Shown: positions 10,497-15,991 of the stretch, in pieces | How positions within the stretch are numbered: position 1 is the stretch's first letter | How the letters are laid out: each line of letters opens with the position of its first letter | Assembly (NCBI RefSeq): GCF_013626205.1 | Contig: NZ_QHJE01000001.1 | Coordinates: forward strand, 2,026,501-2,090,500 | Length of the DNA: 64,000 bases | Source: Hyphomicrobium methylovorum | GTDB taxonomy: Bacteria; Pseudomonadota; Alphaproteobacteria; Rhizobiales; Hyphomicrobiaceae | Direction of reading: 5' to 3' | The notes under the pieces: model-generated | The model's input: only the letters and a program-made list of their open reading frames with translations | Told to the model about the DNA's origin: nothing | Databases searched by the model: none | Translations under genes and position numbers: made by a program

Positions 10497-11270
10497 CTAC
10501 TTCAAAGGAACGTAGGGCGCCGGTTCGTCACGATGGAAGTGATAGGTCAGGCCCACGCGAGCGACCCAGAAGCTGTCGTCCCAGCTTACGCGCGTGGAGC
10601 AGGTTTCGCAGACCGTGGTAACGGCGTACGATTCGCTCTCTGAACCGAGATCGACGTACAGAGCTTCCGCCCGGATCGACCAGTTGCCGTCCCTCATAAA
10701 TTCGATGCCGCCGCCTGCGGTCCATCCCCACTGCGTTCCGCCGCTCGATGCGGAGAAAGAACCGCCCGGTGCGCCGGGATCAAACAGCGTGTGATCTACG
10801 TCGGCATAGGCAAGACCGCCAGTCGCGTAGACGAGGAAGTTATCGCCTGAAACGAGGCCAAGACGTCCGCGCAAGGTGCCGTACCAGTCAATGCTGGAGC
10901 CCAAGAAGGCCGTGCTGCCGAGAAGGGCGCTCGTGTCAGCGTCAAAGTAGTTGAAATCCGTTTCGACGCCGAACAGGACCCGGCCGCACTGAATGTTGTA
11001 GCCAGCGTGCCCACCGATCGAGAAACCGCGATCATTGTCGGACGCGTCAATCCCGCCGATCGGAACGCCGCTCACATATGCCCCGGCTGTGTTCTTCGAG
11101 CGAAGGCTGCCGAAGCCGACGTGAACACCGGCGTAGGGACCAGCAAAGGCGCCGCCGACGCAACGGCCGCTGTCGCCGAAATCGCCGTCTTTCAGGCTGC
11201 CGCCAGCCTGTGCTTGGCTGGCGCCCAGACAAAATGCGCCGGCAATCATCAAGATTGGAAGTAGCCTCAT
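10497..11270 (-). CDS. Outer-membrane beta-barrel protein (Opa/Omp25-like porin family)
   Basis: About 257 residues. From the chosen start, MRLLPILMIAGAFCLGASQAQA is a signal peptide cleaved after residue 22. The mature part has alternating beta-strand patterns with GPYAGVHVGFGS near the start, GGHAGYNIQ, ATGGLAYADV, GWTAGGGIEFM and a terminal WVARVGLTYHFH. It fits the 8-stranded outer-membrane barrel family common in Rhizobiales; the extra C-terminal DEPAPYVPLK tail is unusual for a barrel ending in an aromatic residue. Three in-frame ATGs (11294, 11276, 11270) are possible; AAGG spaced 8 bases before 11270 favours the last. Role unknown, probably envelope structure. Confidence 0.85.
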   Translation of the reverse strand: MRLLPILMIAGAFCLGASQAQAGGSLKDGDFGDSGRCVGGAFAGPYAGVHVGFGSLRSKNTAGAYVSGVPIGGIDASDNDRGFSIGGHAGYNIQCGRVLFGVETDFNYFDADTSALLGSTAFLGSSIDWYGTLRGRLGLVSGDNFLVYATGGLAYADVDHTLFDPGAPGGSFSASSGGTQWGWTAGGGIEFMRDGNWSIRAEALYVDLGSESESYAVTTVCETCSTRVSWDDSFWVARVGLTYHFHRDEPAPYVPLK

Positions 11271-11529
11271 GAGCATGACCTTATGTTGCGCCATAAAAAA
11301 ATGGCGATGAGAGGCGAAGACGCCTGAAAACGAGAATGCTGGCTGTCATCGGAGGTGATTCGTGGGGAGGCGTCGAGGTCAATGACCGAATTATGCCGCG
11401 TTTGTTGGTAATTCGTGGCCTTTTCGCAGCAGGAATCGGCGTTTTCTGCTTGCGCGACGTCAGTTTCGCGCAAGGTTCGAGTGGGTTGCGTGGATAAAAT
11501 GGAGGCAGCTCAGCTCGCCGCCGCTCATG

Positions 11530-13152
11530 TCAGAGCAGGGACCATTGTCCCGCGGCGACGGCCCAGAAAAAGATCACGGCATTGGTCGTCATGTGTGATG
11601 CGACCGCGTCTGTCAGGCGGCCACTTCGGTTCATCAACAGGGCGTAGACGCAACCGGCTAGGGCTGCCGCGATCCAGCGATCATGCATCAATCCAAACAG
11701 CATCGACGAGACGATCAACGCCATCCATCCAAAGGTCTTGAAGTCGACCGTTTCGAAGCGCGAAGAAATCAGTACGCGATAGAGGTAGCCGCGAAAGGCG
11801 AGTTCTTCAGCTATCGGAACCATGACGATCGTGCCGATCGCGCGCAAGGCGAGCCAGGCCATGAGTGCGGGCGTAGCGAGTCCGTCAAGCCAGGCAGCGA
11901 GCCCTCCCTCAGTGGTGCTGCCGGGGTCGGTCGCGATCCACGCTACCGCTACGGCAACGCCAACGCCGATGGAAAACCACGGTACACCGGTCAACAACCG
12001 GGCGTACGCTTCGCGATAGACGTAAACCGGGAGGAGTACGGCCAGGACCTTGACCGGGTAGAGCGCCTGCTCATTCGGAGCGAAGGATTTCGTCAGGATT
12101 TGCGCGGCCATCAGCGCCATGAACGGCGCCAAGTACATGATGACAGGATCGTTCGCGAGGCTGGTGCCCGGCTTGGCTGAGCTTGGTGCGGTTGTGGCTG
12201 ACTGTCCGGCGCTGGCCGCCGTTAGCGAGAAGAACGGCATGCGTTGCGTCACGATCATCATCGAGATGGCGACGAGGAGAAATGAGATCCAACCGAACTG
12301 CGAATGGAAACCGTCGAGCGCAATTTCCGGCGAGTAGTGTGCGCCGATGACAACCAGCAATGCGATCCGCAAGCCGTTGAGCAGCCAGATGGTGACCATG
12401 CCGATCGGCAGAAGCAGAAGAATATTCGGAAACCGGAGCGAGTGGCGGAAGACCCAGATATAGGTCGTGAGGAACGCTGCGATGAGCGCCATGCCTTCGT
12501 AGCCCGAGCATGGCGCAAATACCTGCACACTGAAATCGCGCGCACCGAGGATGCGGGTGTCGAGCTCCATGTGGGCTCGGTCTTCGATCACGGCGAGGAT
12601 GCCGTAAGCGAGGTACAGTGTGGCGGCCGAAAGCCGATCCCAGCCCGCTTCGGAAAGCGCAGTGGCGTGGGCGACGATCGTTCCAATGGGTAAGGCTAGC
12701 GCGAGTTCGGCGCGCCACCGAGCCGCTAGCTGTCTCCAGAACGATAGCGGTGCCGCTACGAATATGAGTGAAACGCCCAACGCGGCGAGCGCGAATGCGT
12801 AAGCATACGACCATTCAAACGCGGTCGAGGGATCCGCGAGCGCGGAGCGGCATACCAAGAGGAATGCGAACGCAGTGAGATTGAAGGCCCCCGCGACTGC
12901 AACGTTGCTGCGGCTCGAGGTGGCATTCAACGCGTGGAGCAGTTCAGCGCGACGGGTCCAGGAGACGATTACGAAAACGATTGCTGCCGCGACCATGGCT
13001 TTCGCCGTGCCGTTGGCAAGCCAGATGGCGACGCTATCGTAGCGAATGGTGGGGATCAGGCGTTCGGCTGCGAGGAGCTGGCAGCCGGCGATAATGGCGG
13101 AACCCGCAATTCGGAATGGAATCCGGCTGTGTCCGGATAGAATCCTAGACAT
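11530..13152 (-). CDS. xrtE: Exosortase E / CPBP protease fusion (VPEID-CTERM system)
   Basis: A 540-residue polytopic membrane protein made of two parts. The N-terminal half is an exosortase: catalytic Cys in PCSGYEG (about residue 213), the Arg of LLNGLRIALL (about 263) and His of GFHSQFGWIS (about 285), the usual Cys-Arg-His set. The C-terminal part is a CPBP/CAAX-type intramembrane protease with AEELAFRGYLYR (about residue 451), LFGLMHDRW and SHMTTN. This two-domain form is the known exosortase E family, which processes proteins with a C-terminal VPEID signal. The matching substrate gene lies 72 bases upstream on the same strand. Ordinary exosortases lack the protease fusion. Confidence 0.92.
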   Translation of the reverse strand: MSRILSGHSRIPFRIAGSAIIAGCQLLAAERLIPTIRYDSVAIWLANGTAKAMVAAAIVFVIVSWTRRAELLHALNATSSRSNVAVAGAFNLTAFAFLLVCRSALADPSTAFEWSYAYAFALAALGVSLIFVAAPLSFWRQLAARWRAELALALPIGTIVAHATALSEAGWDRLSAATLYLAYGILAVIEDRAHMELDTRILGARDFSVQVFAPCSGYEGMALIAAFLTTYIWVFRHSLRFPNILLLLPIGMVTIWLLNGLRIALLVVIGAHYSPEIALDGFHSQFGWISFLLVAISMMIVTQRMPFFSLTAASAGQSATTAPSSAKPGTSLANDPVIMYLAPFMALMAAQILTKSFAPNEQALYPVKVLAVLLPVYVYREAYARLLTGVPWFSIGVGVAVAVAWIATDPGSTTEGGLAAWLDGLATPALMAWLALRAIGTIVMVPIAEELAFRGYLYRVLISSRFETVDFKTFGWMALIVSSMLFGLMHDRWIAAALAGCVYALLMNRSGRLTDAVASHMTTNAVIFFWAVAAGQWSLL

Positions 13153-13224: not shown

Positions 13225-13383
13225 TTAGCGCGACTGCATCCGGCGATAAGCGACGGCGCAGCAGCTGGCGAGCAATGCCATTGCAGCAATTCCGCCAGGT
13301 CCGTCGATTTCCGGAACGCCTGGGGTGTCTTTTGTCGGCAAGCAGTCCCAAATCGAGATGAAAAGCGAGCTGATTGTATGCAC
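13225..13383 (-). CDS. VPEID-CTERM sorting-domain protein, 52 aa (exosortase E substrate)
   Basis: This short GTG-start gene encodes 52 residues ending in a classical tripartite sorting signal: the motif GVPEIDGPGG (residues 23-32), a hydrophobic helix IAAMALLASCCAVAY (33-47) and a basic tail RRMQSR (47-52, overlapping by one). VPEID is exactly the signal paired with exosortase E, encoded 72 bases downstream. GGAG spaced 6 bases before the GTG at 13383 supports this start; an alternative GTG at 13395 lacks good spacing, and an in-frame TGA at about 13460 closes the frame. The N-terminus (HTISSLFISIWD) is hydrophobic but too short for a standard signal peptide. Because it is so small it is easily missed. 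Confidence 0.85.
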   Translation of the reverse strand: MHTISSLFISIWDCLPTKDTPGVPEIDGPGGIAAMALLASCCAVAYRRMQSR

Positions 13384-13715
13384 GGTAATCTCCACGGTTG
13401 TCGCCGCACCCTCCGAAAAAATTCGACGGCACTGGGCTGCCCCGAACAGATTTAGCTGTCAGGAAAATGTCGCTCAACGAATTCGTAAACGAATGGTTAA
13501 AATACATTCCATTTTCGCTCAGCGTGGGTGAGGCTCTGCTGAGTGTTTCAAAATCGGTGCCATAAGGAATGATCGCTGGGCGTTTCAATTTGAAACACGT
13601 CTGTGTGAACACATTCGTCACTAGGCGGATTATTGAGGAATGACGCGGTTCTTCAGCTCTCGCAGCGACGTGCGGCTGTGGCGACGCCGGGCGTTCTGCA
13701 CGCTACTGGTGAAAT
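13384..13715. other. Intergenic region egtD / VPEID-CTERM gene
   Basis: These 332 bases follow the egtD stop on the minus strand and precede the VPEID gene on the same strand. They are AT-richer than their surroundings and hold the 15-base palindrome described separately, probably as part of the xrtE-operon promoter. I see no terminator with a T-run after egtD's stop and no convincing additional gene, though frames run through it. Confidence 0.55.
13582..13596. promoter_or_regulatory. Perfect 15-base palindrome upstream of the xrtE system
   Basis: GTTTCAA-T-TTGAAAC is a perfect inverted repeat with a one-base centre, about 200 bases upstream of the VPEID start. Such dyads are typical binding sites for dimeric helix-turn-helix repressors. 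There is no other copy in this intergenic region. Confidence 0.4.
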
Positions 13716-14687
13716 TTAGCCGAGGATCAACTCGTGGATGCTGAACATTTCTGCGTCGTCGGTCCAGAGGCCGCGAGGGCTCCAGCCAGCCTTTACGGCG
13801 GCGTCTCGAAATTGCTCGACGCTGTATTTGTAGGAATTCTCCGTGTGGATCGTCTCACCGCTTTCGAACCGGAAGCGGCGTCCCGCGACGAGGGCATCTT
13901 GTCGGCGTGTGCTCACGAGATGCATTTCGATACGGCCGCGGTTCGCATCGTAAATCGCCCGATGGCTGAAGCCATCCTCGTCGAAGGAACCGCCCAGCTC
14001 GCGATTGATCCGCTTCAGCAGGTTGCGATTGAACGCCGCCGTCACGCCTGACGCGTCATCGTATGCGGAGACGAGGACGGCGGGGTCCTTTTTAAGATCG
14101 ACGCCGACGATAAGCCGTCCGTTCTCGCCGAGCGAATGCCGGAACGTCTTGAGCAGTTCGATGGCGTCGTCGGGCGCCAGATTGCCGATTGTGGACCCGG
14201 GGAAGAAACCGGTCTTGCGGCGCGATCTGAGATCGGGCGGCAGGCTGACGGGTTGGGAAAAATCGGCGACGATGGGGCGAACGTCGAGTGTCCGGTACCT
14301 GCGGGCAAGTCGGGCGCGAGCGTCTTCAAGTGCCGATCGTGAGACGTCGATCGGAACATAGGCAACGCGCGACGCGATGCGATCGAGCAGAATTTCGGTT
14401 TTGACGCTCGAGCCGGAGCCGAATTCAACGAGCAATTCATTCTCGCCGATCGGCGCGCAAATCTCTTCGGCATTTGCGCGTAGGATCGCCGCTTCCGTTC
14501 GCGTGGGGTAATATTCGGCGAGGCCGGTAATGCGTTCGAATAAGCGGCTTCCGCGCGCATCATAGAGGTACCGGCAAGGCAGCGTCTTTTGAGTTTTGGA
14601 AAGACCGGCGTGTACAGACTTTGCGAAAGCCGTGTCGTATTCCCCGCGGGCGTCTTCGCGGTAATCAGCAGACAGAGATTCATTCAT
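13716..14687 (-). CDS. egtD: L-histidine N-alpha-methyltransferase (ergothioneine biosynthesis)
   Basis: EgtD trimethylates histidine to hercynine with S-adenosylmethionine. The 323-residue product matches the known size (about 320). Visible are RYLYDARGSRLFERI and YYPTRTEAAIL near the N-terminus, the SAM-binding LLVEFGSGSSVKTEILL (about residues 77-93), GSTIGNL and the histidine-binding C-terminal part with HTENSYKYS. Its ATG (14687) overlaps the TAA of egtB (TAATG), so the two genes are translationally coupled. A longer upstream frame to 15032 only overlaps egtB and was rejected. The pair forms a minimal ergothioneine operon; no egtA, egtC or egtE is adjacent. Confidence 0.93.
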   Translation of the reverse strand: MNESLSADYREDARGEYDTAFAKSVHAGLSKTQKTLPCRYLYDARGSRLFERITGLAEYYPTRTEAAILRANAEEICAPIGENELLVEFGSGSSVKTEILLDRIASRVAYVPIDVSRSALEDARARLARRYRTLDVRPIVADFSQPVSLPPDLRSRRKTGFFPGSTIGNLAPDDAIELLKTFRHSLGENGRLIVGVDLKKDPAVLVSAYDDASGVTAAFNRNLLKRINRELGGSFDEDGFSHRAIYDANRGRIEMHLVSTRRQDALVAGRRFRFESGETIHTENSYKYSVEQFRDAAVKAGWSPRGLWTDDAEMFSIHELILG

Positions 14688-15991
14688 TATACGTGATCCG
14701 ATGCGAGACGCAGGCCGGCGAACTGCCAGCGTTGATGGGGATAGAAGAAATTGCGGTAGGTGGTGCGCGAGTGGTCTGGTGGCGTTGCGTAAGATGAGCC
14801 GCGCAAGACGTGCTGGCTGACCATGAACTTGCCGTTGTATTCGCCGATTGCTCCGAGTGGCGGCCGATAGCCGGGGTAGGGAAGGTATGCGCTGGCAGTC
14901 CATTGCCAGAGATCGCCGAAAAGTTGCTGTGGAGCGTTCGCGCTTCCGGTGTCCGGCGTTCGATGCGGACGAAGCGCACCGGAGCGCGCACCATTTTTCA
15001 TTTCGCCTGCAGCCTTCGCGGCGAATTCCCATTCGAATTCGGTTGGCAGTCGCTTGCCGCTCCAGCGCGCGAAGGCTTCGGCTTCATAGAACGACAGGTG
15101 CGCAACCGGTTCGGCCGGAGAGACGGGGCGCGATCCCTGCAGCGACATCTGCATCCATCCGCCGTCGGATTGATGCCAGTACAGCGGCGCGTTCCATCCT
15201 TCGCGGTTGACCGTGGTCCATCCATCGGCAAGCCAGAGCGAGGGCGTGCGATAGCCGTCGTCGAGAATGAATTCCAACCACTCCGCGTTGGTTGTCAGTC
15301 GACTCGCGATTGCAAACGGATGGATGAGAGCTTCGTGAGCTGGGTTTTCGTTGTCCCAGGAATAGCCCTCGCCGGAATGACCGATCTTTACGATTCCGCC
15401 GCCGTGCGTGATCCAACGCACGGGGAGCTGTGGCTCAGTATCGTTTATGTCCGCAGCTTCCTGATAAGCGGGCCGAAGCGGATTTGCATCGAACAATGCG
15501 AGGATGTCTGAGAGCAGAAGCTCTTGATGCTGTTCCTCGTGATTGATGCCGATTTCAATAAGCCGCGCAACATCAGGCGCCATGTCGGCCCGCTGTTCGA
15601 AGAGTGTGCGCAATCCTTCGTCGACGTGCGCGCGATACGCCATCACGCATTCTATTGACGGGCGTGTCAGTAATCCGCGCTTAGGCCGTGGATGGCGTGC
15701 GCCTTGGCTCTCGTAATACGAGTTGAAGCAGAAGTTGAAGCTGTCGTCGAAGATGCGATAGCCGGGGAGGTATGGCTTCAGCACGAAGGTTTCGAAGAAC
15801 CATGTGACGTGAGCCAGATGCCATTTCGTCGGGCTGGCGTCTTCCATGGCCTGGACGACCATGTCTTCCGGCGTGAGCGGCGCGGCCAATTCCATGGAGC
15901 GATCGCGCGTTGCGAACAGTCGTTCGGCAATCGATGGGGCATCAGGCTGGTTTAGGATATGGGCTTTGGGCGGGCTCGTTGTGTCTAGCAT
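14687..15991 (-). CDS. egtB: Ergothioneine sulfoxide synthase EgtB
   Basis: EgtB is an iron enzyme that couples hercynine to a thiol donor (gamma-glutamylcysteine or cysteine) with O2. The 434-residue protein has an N-terminal DinB-like helical bundle with iron-ligand histidines in KWHLAHVTWFFE (about residues 56-67) and INHEEQHQELL (about 148-158), and a C-terminal formylglycine-generating-enzyme-type domain with RLPTEFEWEFAA and QHVLRGSSYAT. GGAGG sits 7 bases before the ATG at 15991. It heads the egtB-egtD operon. The thiol donor cannot be told from the sequence by eye; absence of a neighbouring egtC amidase leaves both options open. Confidence 0.93.
   Translation of the reverse strand: MLDTTSPPKAHILNQPDAPSIAERLFATRDRSMELAAPLTPEDMVVQAMEDASPTKWHLAHVTWFFETFVLKPYLPGYRIFDDSFNFCFNSYYESQGARHPRPKRGLLTRPSIECVMAYRAHVDEGLRTLFEQRADMAPDVARLIEIGINHEEQHQELLLSDILALFDANPLRPAYQEAADINDTEPQLPVRWITHGGGIVKIGHSGEGYSWDNENPAHEALIHPFAIASRLTTNAEWLEFILDDGYRTPSLWLADGWTTVNREGWNAPLYWHQSDGGWMQMSLQGSRPVSPAEPVAHLSFYEAEAFARWSGKRLPTEFEWEFAAKAAGEMKNGARSGALRPHRTPDTGSANAPQQLFGDLWQWTASAYLPYPGYRPPLGAIGEYNGKFMVSQHVLRGSSYATPPDHSRTTYRNFFYPHQRWQFAGLRLASDHV

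Follow-up and report, generated by a model that had tools for sequence, protein, structure and literature searches.

A 52-residue putative exosortase E substrate in Hyphomicrobium methylovorum and micro-cargo precursors at related loci

Exosortases are usually viewed as surface-protein sorting enzymes. What, then, might exosortase E be doing beside a gene of only 52 codons, whose product would leave few residues to sort? We addressed this question by computational analysis of a 64,000-nucleotide stretch of the Hyphomicrobium methylovorum genome (the window), of genomes of its genus and family, and of exosortase E loci from other phyla (loci and genomes are given as L and G numbers).

The small gene and its sorting signal

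The features of the small gene are as follows.
13225 to 13383, minus strand: 52-residue VPEID-type precursor, start codon GTG at 13383, stop codon TAA
13390 to 13393, minus strand: possible ribosome-binding site GGAG, 6 nt from the GTG start
13342 to 13383, minus strand: N-terminal cargo core, MHTISSLFISIWDC
13228 to 13317, minus strand: sorting signal, VPEIDGPGG followed by a hydrophobic helix and a basic end (residues 23 to 52)

A sequence-only reading of this DNA had proposed such a minus-strand open reading frame (ORF), with GGAG six bases ahead of a GTG start, and re-reading the sequence agreed with it throughout. The translation is VHTISSLFISIWDCLPTKDTPGVPEIDGPGGIAAMALLASCCAVAYRRMQSR (52 residues, then the stop codon); V-P-E-I-D begins at residue 23, where the signal had been estimated to start, and the C-terminal end consists of an uncharged span followed by AYRRMQSR. 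The claim that no longer gene runs in frame from upstream also stood: the earliest in-frame start, a GTG at 13395, gives 56 residues and the stop-to-stop frame has 77 codons, so that no long N terminus is possible and a larger in-frame gene, or the tail of a long protein, is ruled out. In genus relatives, e.g., MHTVVNFCLTLWDC and MQFVVDCFIVIWHC, the start codons line up with the start at 13383. An ORF of 158 codons overlaps the gene in a different frame. A simple scan found no coding-strand promoter for the 52-residue gene, the hairpin between it and the exosortase E gene is not unusual (z of -1.25), and a plasmid search with the ORF gave no match.

Exosortase E and its neighborhood

The exosortase E gene starts 72 nt beyond the stop codon of the precursor and is followed by a beta-barrel gene.
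11530 to 13152, minus strand: exosortase E/protease, 540 aa, with exosortase and CPBP (Rce1-like) domains
10497 to 11294, minus strand: outer-membrane beta-barrel protein (OMP_b-brl, PF13505)

The downstream neighbor had been read as an exosortase E fused to a CPBP protease, and profile searches bear this out, with 245.3 bits for TIGR04162 (cut-off, 150), 49.7 for PF09721, and 58.8 for PF02517. At E values up to 0.01 the genome has no other exosortase match. Its sequence was aligned with 46 enzymes from the species-genome scan described below, and TIGR04162 matches all 47 at E values up to 1e-5. In the exosortase part, the active-site residues C215, R262, and H283 are invariant in 47/47 enzymes. 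The CPBP part (motifs EExxxR, H, and HxxxN, as given in the available text of PMC11980579) has E449, E450, R454, H490, and H520 invariant in 47/47 and N524 in 90% or more. Invariance of both residue sets suggests that both halves of the enzyme are active. An AlphaFold2 model of the enzyme is confident (pLDDT, 89; pTM, 0.78), and a Foldseek search of this model against the PDB gave no match with an E value up to 0.001.

Of 19 exosortase E regions, 17 of them from the window's family, 8 have a BLAST relative of the beta-barrel protein close to the enzyme, and one more family locus, L069, has a beta-barrel there, on either strand across loci. Because of this recurrence, and since the genome has just six PF13505 matches in all, the adjacency is unlikely to be chance, and we regard the beta-barrel as a linked part, a recurrent neighbor of exosortase E in the window's family. 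The loci are the window, L164, L171, L173 to L177, and L069; PF13505 itself was seen in the window, L057, and L069, and the rest were found by BLAST. Directly upstream of the precursor, on the same strand, are EgtD and EgtB (ergothioneine synthesis; 13716 to 15991).

The only strong substrate candidate in the genome

The ORF had been claimed as a VPEID-CTERM substrate. It has the C-terminal motif, the hydrophobic span, the basic end, and an exosortase E in the same genome, and the pairing with the enzyme and the leave-one-out profile described below speak for the claim; the direct check with TIGR04161 does not, at 16 bits against a cut-off of 33, over profile positions 1 to 19 of 31. The protein thus behaves as VPEID-CTERM-like but falls under the curated cut-off, and it is therefore not filed as a TIGR04161 member. 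At E values up to 10 this model gives six matches in the genome, the best being the 13225-to-13383 ORF, although at that threshold it also gives matches in 9 of 14 control genomes.

A leave-one-out profile (A4) built from 23 related tails, with the window sequence left out, scored the ORF at 57 bits against the whole genome (E value, 7.3e-15), and the runner-up reached 13.5 bits. A search for the tail pattern gave a single match in the 64-kb window and none in 60 order-1 Markov copies of it. Two sub-threshold matches to PEP-CTERM (TIGR02595; cut-off, 16 bits) were found in the genome, the best at 14.6 bits, both away from the locus. A degenerate DNA motif for further substrates, GTNCCNGARNTNGA, was uninformative (21 matches versus 18 in a backward control). 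No further convincing substrate appeared in the genome with TIGR04161, the DNA motif, the leave-one-out profile, or PEP-CTERM; the 52-residue ORF is the sole detectable substrate and the only strong profile match.

Co-occurrence with the enzyme and purifying selection

Of 103 family genomes, 28 have a TIGR04162 match with an E value of at most 1e-20, and 27 of these score over its cut-off. A tail profile of 24 rows (A3), which covers the tail only and can thus also find large-cargo proteins, gave 39 matches of 30 bits or more, in exactly the 28 exosortase E genomes, presence being built in for the 21 that supplied 21 of the 24 rows. All seven positive genomes outside A3 also match, several being closely related to A3 rows; the 75 enzyme-negative genomes are independent of the profile. 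None of the 75 has a tail match above 20 bits: four have matches of 18 to 20 bits in open frames of 274 to 505 codons, and the remainder have no A3 match at E values up to 0.01. All 39 strong matches lie in open frames of 47 to 143 codons. Eleven of them are extra copies, in nine genomes, on other contigs or hundreds of kilobases from the enzyme, and the only copy in genome G058 is on a different contig from the enzyme.

Relatives of the 52-residue gene show purifying selection. When the N-terminal part (signal peptide included) and the tail were treated as separate segments, 12 overlapping pairs gave 24 comparisons, of which 22 had a defined dS, and dN was the lower value in every one of the 22. 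For the N-terminal part and the tail, respectively, dN and dS were 0.052 and 0.664, then 0.036 and 0.436 (L011/L014); 0.016 and 0.276, then 0.049 and 0.635 (L008/L017); and 0.038 and 1.012, then 0.016 and 0.542 (L010/L019). The window copy is without a close relative, and its own test is therefore weak: against L161 the values are saturated (dN of 0.774 and dS of 2.472 for the cargo part; 0.495 and 1.411 for the tail).

Could the ORF be a chance frame carrying a lucky motif? Its score under the curated cut-off and the overlapping 158-codon ORF would fit that explanation. Against it stand the absence of the tail pattern from the Markov copies, the leave-one-out E value of 7e-15, an N terminus and start colinear with those of genus relatives, and purifying selection among relatives. 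A chance ORF is thus highly improbable, and the 52-residue gene is very probably real.

Forms within the genus and family

Eight genomes of the genus have the enzyme. Seven of them carry the form without a signal peptide, whose starts align and whose first 14 residues are colinear, and the remaining one, G061, carries a signal-peptide form (L021). Four of the eight carry a second, signal-peptide copy (L149 to L152). Five of the six genus relatives of the signal-peptide-less form have C-F-x-x-x-W-x-C at residues 7 to 14, and in the sixth, L161, the first Cys is one place later; in the window copy, Leu replaces the first of the two Cys present in all six. Together with L010 and L019 of another genus, the signal-peptide-less forms number nine, and all nine combine a net negative N-terminal side with a net positive C-terminal side, the pattern expected for N-out insertion of a single C-terminal span. 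This form in the window's genus appears to be new within the searchable literature.

Across the family, 30 of 39 substrates have a signal peptide (assigned by eye), with a median cargo of 10 residues. Cys occurs in 25 of the 39 cargoes, 14 of which have at least two, the whole N-terminal part being taken as cargo in the nine signal-peptide-less forms. A general model of lipid attachment on Cys, as for MYXO-CTERM, is weakened by the signal-peptide substrates outside the family, of which 13 of 71 have a Cys-containing cargo.

Exosortase E loci beyond the family

The species-genome scan gave 262 enzyme relatives, and the best 80 of these 262 were kept; they are nominally from Alpha-, Beta-, Gamma-, and Deltaproteobacteria, Planctomycetota, Acidobacteriota, Myxococcota, and Thermodesulfobacteriota. 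A strict pattern (PE[ILMVF][DNSG] 22 to 36 residues from the end, with an uncharged span and a basic end) found 96 candidates in 64 of these 80 loci and none in a reversed-letter control; a looser pattern gave 66/80 loci versus 2/80 in a backward control. The other 16 of the best 80 had no strict candidate within the stretch examined. By our count, 22 of the 80 are members of the window's family or look like it, and most of these come from genomes already in the 103-genome set. Outside the family, 44 of 58 loci have a candidate and 14 have none, some contigs ending near the enzyme. Of the nominal Myxococcota loci, L084 has no candidate and L090 one doubtful match of 236 residues.

As a control, 18 of 190 genomes supplied 19 exosortase A loci, 12 of them over the exosortase A cut-off. 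Taken with flanks of at most 1.5 kb, these gave no strict match, versus 29 of 32 exosortase E loci, the window's own included, in the same strict test. The three misses are explained by a copy on another contig (L007), a copy cut by the locus end and recovered in L157 (L022), and a fragment (L035).

Short cargo, which had been claimed for the window's ORF alone, was seen in most of the substrates found. By a crude home-made rule, on which these cargo lengths rest, an AxA-like signal peptide is present in 85 of the 96 candidates, the median precursor has 59 residues, and the median cargo of the 85 signal-peptide forms has 8 (4 to 10 in 59 of them); copies at one locus were counted singly, so that these figures are not independent and multicopy loci weigh heavily. 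The longest ORF is at most 150 residues in 89/96 candidates. Exceptions with large cargo are L113 (ORFs of 283, 302, and 362 residues) and L118 (one of 171), and ORFs of 99 to 138 residues occur at several loci, among them L071, L075, L077, L095, L102, and L103. Micro-cargo precursors appear to be the usual substrate in the exosortase E loci examined, which appears to be new within the searchable literature.

Nine loci (L058, L061, L064 to L067, L070, L076, and L109) carry three or four tiny precursors each, with closely similar tails and unlike cargo. Over 46 pairs from 16 multicopy loci, mean identity was 58% for the signal peptide, 16% for the cargo, and 83% for the tail; over the 34 pairs with short cargo it was 62, 18, and 82%, respectively, and the cargo was the least identical segment in 33. 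Among 49 framework-matched pairs, the 12 whose cargoes are equally long gave pooled dN/dS values of 0.48 for cargo, 0.26 for signal peptide, and 0.06 for tail; these values, which mix paralogues and leave out 37 pairs of unequal cargo length, are a hint only.

Other gene clusters recur near the enzyme. One of them, typed as fatty-acid hydroxylase by PF04116 in three tested members, is found at 12 loci (L052, L058, L061, L064 to L067, L070, L076, L091, L099, and L109), and in the gammaproteobacterial L099 and L109 the gene lies 21 to 26 nt downstream on the same strand. Nine planctomycetal loci (L073, L074, L078, L080, L085, L087, L089, L093, and L108) have an SdrD_B/SpaA repeat-protein cluster, so typed in both members tested (L080 and L108). 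The Marinicaulis-type loci L052, L061, L064 to L067, and L070 have a histidine kinase cluster near the enzyme, whose tested member (L065) carries HisKA and HATPase_c.

Recognition by current models and comparison with known systems

Among 48 chosen substrates, TIGR04161 matched 24 at E values up to 0.01 and none at 1e-7, taken as near its cut-off; no Pfam family matched more than one. Only two of 20 genomes searched directly, G433 and G124, have a TIGR04161 match over the cut-off. Current models thus recognize the enzyme well and mostly miss the partner. The exosortase E/protease itself is already known. In the literature searched, mostly open access, no mention was found of VPEID-CTERM, exosortase E, TIGR04161, or XrtE alongside exosortase; exosortase together with small-protein terms gave no match in the literature listed, and the string "VPEID" occurred only in work on other subjects, judged by title.

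The window's pair resembles the VPEID-CTERM/exosortase E system (TIGR04161/TIGR04162) in an enzyme over its cut-off, V-P-E-I-D with a helix and basic end, and adjoining genes, but the substrate is under its cut-off, has 52 residues, and lacks a signal peptide. In the two genomes over the TIGR04161 cut-off, the partners (L036 and L037) have about 91 to 93 residues, a signal peptide, and a Gly-rich linker. PEP-CTERM/EpsH shares the tripartite C-terminal signal and multispanning enzyme; according to the available text of PMC1569441, genomes with that system have a median of eight substrates of varied kinds, as a rule with a signal peptide, whereas the window's genome has one tiny substrate and the 19 exosortase A loci have no tiny gene. 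The CPBP intramembrane protease and, in many members, a Cys before the helix are shared with MrtJ/JDVT-CTERM and MrtX/MYXO-CTERM, and MrtJ is paired with a single neighboring substrate (available text of PMC11980579), as is exosortase E in the window. Unlike in MrtJ and MrtX, the window's CPBP protease is fused to an exosortase, and Cys is not invariant, with cargo Cys in 25/39 family substrates.

A very short exported peptide and its alternatives

The 28/28 versus 0/75 profile, linkage in several phyla, purifying selection, and the lack of any other strong candidate support the 52-residue protein as the putative cognate substrate of exosortase E, with minimal cargo. Our preferred reading, which we consider likely, is that this sole detectable substrate of the genome's only exosortase is turned into an exported peptide of very few residues, anchored more probably than free. 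The precursor, having no signal peptide, would enter the inner membrane N-out, as its charges suggest, which would leave the P-E-I-D motif on the periplasmic side of the C-terminal helix. Using Cys215, Arg262, and His283, the exosortase domain would cut at or near P-E/I-D and pass the short N-terminal peptide to an acceptor lipid, a glycan, or water. This peptide would have about 25 residues in the window and mostly 6 to 12 in relatives after removal of the signal peptide. Removal of the remaining tail, or a second cleavage, may fall to the fused CPBP protease. Anchoring to lipid or glycan seems at least as likely as release; exosortase chemistry is treated as inference in the available text of PMC11980579.

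Two other readings accept the gene and assign it a different role. The tiny protein might act with exosortase E in the membrane as a partner or regulator, its tail docking in the enzyme and its N-terminal residues acting as a mere spacer. Such a role would suit the tight pairing, the very little cargo of many members, and the cargo's position as the fastest-changing segment. It accords poorly with two to four copies in nine genomes, the extras on other contigs or far off, with the unlike cargo of the three or four copies at nine loci, with the same kind of tail at the end of large proteins (L113 and L118), and with AxA-like signal peptides in 85/96 candidates, and we think it distinctly unlikely. 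Alternatively, signal peptidase and exosortase E could free 6 to 30 residues as a messenger or competition peptide, pheromone- or RiPP-like. The cargo that varies between conserved ends, the two or more cysteines in 14 of 39 family cargoes, and the histidine kinase-type genes of the Marinicaulis-type group are consistent with a messenger, but an unconstrained spacer would vary too, the loci examined have no consistently linked receptor or exporter, and exosortase-type systems appear to leave their products on the surface (available text of PMC11980579). Only the pattern of conserved ends and variable core was seen among RiPP/pheromone-type features, and we rate a messenger as unlikely.

A broader and more tentative reading, which we hold to be possible rather than probable, is that exosortase E is in essence a ribosomal-peptide maturation enzyme that trims, and attaches or frees, peptides of about 6 to 30 residues that vary between conserved ends.

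Implications

Tiny genes often lie beside relatives of the enzyme in several phyla, and the enzyme may therefore produce short peptides for export in place of surface proteins. On the broader reading of exosortase E as a ribosomal-peptide maturation enzyme, its peptides would be lipo- or glycopeptides or signals of a new ribosomally encoded class, spanning alpha- and gammaproteobacteria, Planctomycetota, Acidobacteriota, and others and largely invisible to present annotation models; the current substrate model misses most of the examined partners of a well-recognized enzyme. Small, cheap one-enzyme/one-substrate pairs such as that of H. methylovorum would suit tests of exosortase chemistry. 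For this exosortase branch, a usual substrate that leaves so few residues shifts the question from which surface protein is sorted to what the peptide is for.
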